Assembly: GCF_015645385.1 (NCBI RefSeq)
Contig: NZ_JADOET010000006.1
Span: forward strand, 62,001 to 126,000
DNA from: Winogradskyella marina
GTDB taxonomy: Bacteria > Bacteroidota > Bacteroidia > Flavobacteriales > Flavobacteriaceae
Length of the DNA stretch: 64,000 nt
Direction of reading: 5' to 3'
Translations under genes and position numbers: made by a program
Notes under the pieces: model-generated
The model's database searches: none
The model's input: the letters and a program-made list of their open reading frames with translations, nothing else
Told to the model about the DNA's origin: nothing
Shown: positions 16,000-17,020 of the stretch, one piece after another
Layout of the letters: every line of letters starts with the position of its first letter
Numbering within the stretch: the stretch's first letter is position 1

Positions 16000-16028
16000 G
16001 AGATTCTTCGACTGTGCTCAGAATGACA
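16000..16028. repeat. Dispersed palindromic repeat (GAGATTC...ATGACA)
   Basis: It starts GAGATTCTTCGACTGTGCTC and ends AGAATGACA. ATTCT and AGAAT form the outer arms and GA..GTGCTC the inner part. It shares the GAGATT start and ATGACA end with the elements at 16994-17020 and 18389-18413, and the central words with the copy inside pabB. Confidence 0.75.
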
Positions 16029-16600: not shown

Positions 16601-16633
16601 TTTTGAATTCAACGTCAAGTATAGGATGACAAA
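16601..16633. repeat. Degenerate palindromic repeat copy, reverse-oriented
   Basis: The end AGGATGACAAA (16623-16633) is the exact reverse complement of TTTGTCATCCT at 16656-16666, giving an 11-bp inverted repeat with 22 bases between. The preceding TTCAACGTCAAGTAT resembles the inner part of that element. It looks like a decayed third copy next to the GIY-YIG unit. Confidence 0.55.
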
Positions 16634-16657: not shown

Positions 16658-16684
16658 TGTCATCCTGAACTTGATTCAGGATCC
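16658..16684. repeat. Left palindrome of the GIY-YIG unit
   Basis: TGTCATCCTGAACTTGATTC followed by AGGATCC. Arms CCTGAA and TTCAGG enclose CTTGA. On the minus strand it reads GGATCCTGAATCAAG then TTCAGGATGACA, parallel to the right-hand copy. Confidence 0.8.
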
Positions 16685-16685
16685 A

Positions 16686-16988
16686 TTAATATTCCCAATC
16701 TTTTGATAAATCTATCCAATCTTTATTATCCTGTTCAATTAAATCAATTTTCCATTGACGATTCCAATTTTTCAATTGCTTTTCTCTTTTAATGGCATCG
16801 TTTATATATTGAAAAGATTCAAAATACATTAATTTATTTATGTTATACTTCGAAGTAAAACCTTTCACTAATTTGTTTTTATGTTCATACATTCTTCGAT
16901 CTAAACTATTCGTAACACCAATATATAATGTTCCATTTTTCATATTGGATAAAATATAAATATAGTATTGATGACCATTTCTTTTCAT
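16686..16988 (-). CDS. GIY-YIG domain nuclease (UPF0213/YhbQ-like)
   Basis: A 100-residue protein consisting of a single GIY-YIG nuclease domain. YYIYILSNMKNGTLYIGVT (residues 8-26) holds the two signature strands. It is followed by the conserved Arg/His-containing helix (SLDRRMYEHKNK) and KLMYFESFQYINDAIKREKQ, where the glutamate that would bind metal and the KREKQ helix lie. The full core is present, so it could be active. It ends KDWIDLSKDWEY, typical of this subfamily. Palindromic repeats lie one base after the stop and five bases before the ATG, with no room for an independent promoter outside the repeats. In-cell role unknown; DNA repair, homing-like mobility or repeat maintenance are possible. 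Confidence 0.88.
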   Translation of the reverse strand: MKRNGHQYYIYILSNMKNGTLYIGVTNSLDRRMYEHKNKLVKGFTSKYNINKLMYFESFQYINDAIKREKQLKNWNRQWKIDLIEQDNKDWIDLSKDWEY

Positions 16989-16993
16989 ATTAT

Positions 16994-17020
16994 GGATTCC
17001 GCATCAAGTGCGGAATGACA
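16994..17020. repeat. Right palindrome of the GIY-YIG unit
   Basis: GGATTCCGCATCAAGTGCGG followed by AATGACA. Arms ATTCCGCA and TGCGGAAT enclose TCAAG. It ends 26 bases before the stop codon of the next gene (17047), and begins five bases upstream of the GIY-YIG ATG. Confidence 0.82.

Follow-up and report, generated by a model that had tools for sequence, protein, structure and literature searches.

A GIY-YIG nuclease gene located in a 64,000-nucleotide stretch of the Winogradskyella marina genome (hereafter the window) is bracketed by two palindromes of one type in opposite orientation. The resulting 363-base unit is quite probably a small mobile element, with CGTC-type REPs as its ends and, as its sole protein, a GIY-YIG nuclease that would recognise its cognate hairpins. 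The association of the gene with the palindromes is observed directly, and we infer that cutting and movement are carried out by the GIY-YIG protein. It is fairly likely that units of this kind form a widespread class of minimal bacterial transposable elements, bounded by cognate CGTC REPs and encoding nothing but a single-domain GIY-YIG nuclease.

The unit is intergenic. Its 100-codon gene (16686..16988, minus strand) has on its stop side the hairpin TGTC-ATCCTGAA-CTTGA-TTCAGGAT-CCA (16658..16685, plus strand) and on its start side the hairpin TGTC-ATTCCGCA-CTTGA-TGCGGAAT-CCA (16993..17020, minus strand, read from 17020 to 16993). Both hairpins are recovered by a strict hairpin scan and by exact match (16659-16684, and 16994-17019 on the minus strand). 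Their TGTC tags point off the gene and their CCA tails point to it. Read on the minus strand, the unit runs TGTC-ATTCCGCA-CTTGA-TGCGGAAT-CCA, four bases, the 100-codon gene and, right after the stop codon, TGG-ATCCTGAA-TCAAG-TTCAGGAT-GACA. Four bases lie between the start-side tail and the ATG, and none between the stop-side tail and the stop codon. The earlier note had given these spacings as five bases and one base, and is corrected on this point; its description of opposite-orientation palindromes of one type, of the 363-base extent and of the ends TGTCATCC..GGAATGACA agrees with the sequence.

Each of the two hairpins occurs once in the window at up to 3 mismatches, where shuffles expect 0, and no further copy of the unit's palindromes was found within the 64 kb at this tolerance. 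A putative eroded extra copy (TGTCATCCTATACTTGACGTT, 16611..16631, minus strand) was noticed by eye; the resemblance is weak and was missed by the 3-mismatch search. The one intact solo palindrome nearby (GTCATTCTGAGCACAGTCGAAGAATC, 16002..16027, minus strand) belongs to another class, by eye closer to the palindromes of this genome's L008 unit than to those of the window unit. The proposal that the nearby solo palindromes are copies of the unit's ends is therefore weak. A sample of 464 kb of the genome, made up of the window and 20 further 20-kb stretches, contained 9 hairpins with a GTC tag and a stem score of at least 8. The GTC tag itself is not enriched in this sample (9, as against 6 to 16 for other triplets). 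Among the 9, the window pair alone resembles, by eye, GC-bearing CGTC REPs, and in the strict scan of the same 464 kb it is the sole outward-tagged pair within 1.5 kb.

The protein belongs to the GIY-YIG family (PF01541, E 5.7e-17), and a domain search found no Y1 domain in it. Residues Y11, Y22, G24, R32, H36 and E69 are invariant in 19 sequences; by the precedent of UvrC, we take them to be catalytic. The AlphaFold model has a mean pLDDT of 92. Its single fold match with E < 0.001 is UPF0213 protein BH0048, followed by Slx1 entries. The Slx1 structure entries bear titles on branched DNA, and those of UPF0213 give no function. A search with PADLOC returned no match, so that a defence role is unsupported, and NCBIfam gave only a weak match, below cut-off, to TIGR01453 (group I intron homing endonuclease type). 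The GIY-YIG protein is under purifying selection, with dN/dS of 0.03 to 0.17 in the 8 pairs, out of 10, for which a value was obtained. Stop codons are present in some gene copies, for instance in the L006 copy of this genome.

Eight small GIY-YIG matches were found in the W. marina genome. By eye, all eight are bracketed by opposite-orientation palindromes, which differ between loci; by inverted-repeat score seven pass, and L003/L321 scores 12. The genome also encodes three large GIY-YIG proteins (597, 466 and 449 codons), and neither of the two testable ones passes. The window unit is single-copy and its next relative is 67% identical, so that the many unit copies foreseen in the earlier note are not found in this genome. 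Three Y1 transposase matches (L070, L071 and L072) all lie away from the window unit. By eye, other kinds of repeat are found alongside them, such as GCTCCAGAGGAG, CCCGTTAGGGAC and CCTGTCAGGTTTTGGAAACC.

The bracketing extends well beyond this genome. Loci were picked on protein similarity alone: 137 from 60 Winogradskyella genomes (among the matches listed) and 80 named ones. For the former, sequence was retrieved at 100 of those listed matches that had no locus yet. After removal of 11 duplicates and of 2 loci with short flanks from these 217, 204 were scored. A locus passes when the best inverted-repeat score between its up and down flanks is at least 14; this score was used as the main measure because bulged classes such as GTCATTTCGAGCTTGCCGAGAAATC escape a strict perfect-stem search. 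Of the 204 distinct loci, 135 have matching inverted palindromes on their two sides, namely 73/133 in the 60-genome set (among the matches listed), 38/45 named Flavobacteriia and 24/26 other named loci. At the same threshold, 5/179 control ORFs (mechanically called ATG-to-stop frames, 90 codons or longer, drawn exclusively from the named loci), 3/1045 shuffles and 109/1000 mismatched locus pairs pass, in counts that date from the locus set still including the 11 duplicates. The mismatched pairs pass this often because related palindrome classes recur. A direct-repeat comparison (90/209 at 14 or above, in the set with duplicates) was rejected as a control since palindromes match themselves. Strict hairpins on both sides are tag-outward at 67/203 loci versus tag-inward at 11/203, and strict tag-outward pairs occur in 1/175 control ORFs and 0/208 shuffles, again counted before the duplicates were dropped. 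Among the 135 passing loci, GTC stands near both outer ends in 91 and near both inner ends in 14.

The 24 passing loci from outside the Flavobacteriia include Bradyrhizobium, two further Alphaproteobacteria, Nitrotoga, Sulfurovum, a spirochaete, Elusimicrobia, Omnitrophota, Atribacteria and several Patescibacteria; many of these loci are metagenome-assembled, so that any single taxon assignment may be wrong. The pairing of gene and palindromes is general across several phyla. It is not universal among small GIY-YIG genes. Below the threshold are 69/204 loci (60/133 of the 60-genome set), some because their two palindromes differ, others being without clear palindromes. In ten diverse genomes taken from the named loci, 30 of 40 PF01541 matches had loci. 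All ten seed loci pass, as do 6 of 13 other small GIY-YIG genes, one of which (L337) shows an AT-rich match that is probably due to chance. None of the four testable large GIY-YIG proteins of these genomes passes.

The palindromes vary with the protein. On deduplicated loci, REP similarity correlates with protein identity (Mantel r 0.544, reached in 0 of 999 permutations). Among passing loci with unlike outer flanks, mean REP similarity is 0.24 where the proteins are less than 40% identical and 0.66 where they are more than 70% identical. Units of the same genome whose proteins are less than 50% identical have a median REP similarity of 0.23 (49 pairs); it is 0.81 for units of different genomes with proteins more than 65% identical (239 pairs). 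Both sets of pairs come from the 60-genome set before removal of 3 within-set duplicates, and some of the 239 may join units that stand at orthologous sites. Protein and REPs travel as a pair. In one clade, 13 units fall into six flank groups, or possibly seven, since one of the six rests on a single 139-base match.

The earlier note had considered that the palindromes might occur without relation to GIY-YIG genes, and here the outcome is divided. The class GTCATTCCTGC..GCAGGAATCCA is found in 13/13 genomes with the matching gene clade (median 10 copies), and also in 18/47 genomes without it, with 36 copies in G018; clade presence was assigned by hand among the matches listed. The association has a Fisher p of 5e-5 and a Mann-Whitney p of 7e-4, values that are optimistic because the genomes are related. 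REPs can persist after loss of their gene or exceed it in copy number. For the class GTCATTTCGA..CGAGAAATC, 10 of the 11 copies with loop CTTGCC or CTTGTC stand at units, and other forms are found in genomes without its gene clade.

Both window hairpins have the design of CGTC REPs, with a C/TGTC tag, an 8-bp stem from AT, a 5-base loop and a CCA tail. The available part of Di Nocera et al. (2013, PMC3733652) describes these repeats as made of a CGTC or TGTC tag, an 8-9 bp stem starting with AT, a loop of 4-5 bases and a CCA tail, and as apparently lacking a dedicated transposase; the carriers that it names include A. lipoferum, S. meliloti and Neisseriae (dRS3). Head-to-head pairs predominate there, and the tag-outward window pair is read here as equal to that arrangement. 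No enzyme is tied to the repeats in that part of the article (PMC3733652), whereas here they bracket a GIY-YIG gene; in W. marina, copy number is moreover low for the two classes counted (10 and 6 copies, units included), which are not those of the window unit. In a plasmid collection, 35 records contain the gene and 7 loci were scored. Strict tagged CGTC hairpins flank the gene on both sides in A. lipoferum, Rhizobium CIAT894, Novosphingobium and N. gonorrhoeae. At the S. meliloti locus, the two flanks match perfectly in inverted orientation over 26 bases, and the strict tag is present on one side only. Such genes thus lie between CGTC REPs in all three of the carriers named above. Planktothrix (score 15.0, best shuffle 13.5) and Spirosoma (17.0, best shuffle 11.5) are without a strict hairpin. 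On the Planktothrix plasmid (L317), the GIY-YIG gene has a type IIL restriction gene (MmeI) on one side and the DISARM gene drmA on the other.

Sites with, without and with remnants of the unit were found. A DUF6638 gene adjoins the window unit; it is present in 55 genomes, and 30 orthologous intervals were read by eye. Three are intact, 12 are bare and 5 contain other sequence. One (L030) is internally deleted, with one palindrome whole and the other eroded; four (L020, L031, L032, L038) have one palindrome or a remnant, two (L034, L035) have doubtful remnants and three (L021, L027, L037) an unrelated gene. The gene is thus far from being carried by all orthologous loci, in keeping with the mobility that the earlier note had proposed. 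From its coordinates, G029 is judged to be a fourth genome with an occupied site. The window unit is single-copy and is also found at this locus in three or more further genomes, so that its present activity is low.

In W. marina, a unit about 380 bases long stands at the L006 site, between two genes whose counterparts in G003 and G014 are separated by a few bases. The L007 site carries a unit in this genome and in G002; G011, G033 and G037 have there a gene-less palindrome pair of another class. Three orthologues of the site (L279, L280, L281) show gene-less pairs of inverted ATTCCTGCG..GCAGGAATCTCA palindromes about 60 bases apart, which are REPIN-like, and at the same site G003 and G055 (L274, L277) show a different repeat pair, AGCCCATC..CTTCCC and GGGAAGG..GATGGGC. 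Azospirillum lipoferum carries the gene, together with its REPs, in the interval between sufB and sufC; in A. ramasamyi, A. oryzae and B510 the two suf genes are adjacent. Three states are seen in Sphingobium: the unit in MM7A, a single palindrome with a tag at each end in TYG64 and TYG74, and no palindrome in TYG72. The TYG64/TYG74 palindrome is the product expected from deletion between the repeated arms of the unit. No clear target duplication was seen in the empty-site comparisons (L006, L007, Azospirillum, Sphingobium).

These sites bear on a homing mechanism, in which the nuclease would cut pre-existing solo palindromes and homologous repair via the palindrome arms would copy the unit in. 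Homing endonucleases occur among GIY-YIG enzymes, some relatives have solo or eroded palindromes at the window site, and the one double-tagged palindrome of TYG64 and TYG74 stands where MM7A has the unit. However, deletion between the unit's arms would also leave that solo palindrome, the window site is bare in 12 of 30 relatives and the L006 site is bare in G003 and G014. We consider homing unlikely. It is quite improbable that the gene is a domesticated host factor, formerly mobile and now serving the host, for example by trimming REP structures: only 3 of 30 orthologous loci are intact, sites vary within a clade and some copies have stops, even if dN/dS is low, the gene is single-copy and several species share the locus.

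It is very improbable that the GIY-YIG gene is a passenger merely caught between two palindromes that another enzyme moves. REPs are found without the gene, and this genome does have Y1 transposase genes; yet other repeats stand beside all three Y1 matches (by eye), control ORFs are hardly ever bracketed (1/175 by the strict criterion, 5/179 by score) and the GIY-YIG protein and REPs co-vary. The available part of Di Nocera et al. (PMC3733652), too, ties no transposase gene to CGTC repeats. As for ordinary terminator-like hairpins placed by coincidence at the gene ends, gene-end hairpins are common, but one of the two lies upstream of the start, and the tag orientation and end-to-end match exceed the controls. 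Coincidence is next to impossible.

The reading that we prefer remains a mobile element moved by its own GIY-YIG nuclease. It would function on the principle of a RAYT/REP REPtron, its nuclease having an unrelated fold. The enzyme would nick or cut hairpins, once extruded or single-stranded, close to their tagged foot; the cut would free or copy the unit, and host repair would join it into mostly intergenic sites. Gene loss would leave paired, REPIN-like REPs and then solo REPs. GIY-YIG enzymes hydrolyse DNA without a covalent intermediate, so that strand joining should need host help, unlike with HUH transposases. In REPtrons, enzyme and REP co-evolve, and there are usually few enzyme copies, with solo REPs elsewhere. 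The unit resembles the RAYT / TnpA-REP REPtron, as presented in the available part of PMC8266576, in having a small gene between opposite-orientation REPs, and differs from it in having a GIY-YIG instead of an HUH Y1 protein and a C/TGTC instead of a GTAG tag. The central idea of the earlier note, a GIY-YIG gene in the place of the Y1 (RAYT) transposase, is supported for this genus and for loci of several other phyla: the palindromes track the protein and empty sites exist. GIY-YIG homing endonucleases of the group I intron type also bear a GIY-YIG catalytic domain on a spreading gene. Unlike them, the unit is without intron or intein, intergenic and single-domain, with palindrome ends. UPF0213 and Slx1 are alike in fold, being the nearest solved structures; Slx1 is a cellular repair enzyme with further domains.

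The recurrence of the pairing in many bacterial groups suggests that the enzyme moves a large repeat class that is without a known mover. If so, the GIY-YIG nuclease would supply the mobilising enzyme that the CGTC REP super-family, Neisseria dRS3 included, has so far been missing, and it would be an independent counterpart of RAYT REPtrons, two unrelated nuclease folds having converged on the REP life-style. Many genes labelled 'GIY-YIG nuclease family protein' or 'excinuclease ABC subunit C' would then be parts of mobile elements. CGTC REPs span several phyla, include repeats known for a long time such as dRS3, and were described in 2013 as lacking an enzyme of their own; a specific small candidate enzyme makes the question testable at the bench. 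Searches of open-access papers, judged from their result lists, turned up none that links GIY-YIG genes with REPs, and an earlier report may exist in subscription journals or preprints. A term search of the available part of RepRanger 2025 (PMC12306157) found neither GIY nor RAYT.

In the three intervals with an unrelated gene at the window site (L021, L027, L037), that gene (MKFKFEG..IWQK..) has about 118 codons and immediately follows the DUF6638 gene. Its product presumably resembles four-helix-bundle / 23S rRNA intervening-sequence proteins. Inverted GAAGCTTGAAGCACGAAG-type repeats stand beside it, with scores of 18.5, 15.5 and 13.0, and it is possibly a second repeat-bounded element. In G018, one REP class forms four tandem copies with a spacing of 185 bases (G018:C24:3219-3799). 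Finally, three frames of about 440 codons with a GIY-YIG match (L165, L167, L168) have a palindrome pair (GGCTGAGCGTAGTCGAAGCC) near the domain ends, and a short frame (L146) carries the same palindrome class.
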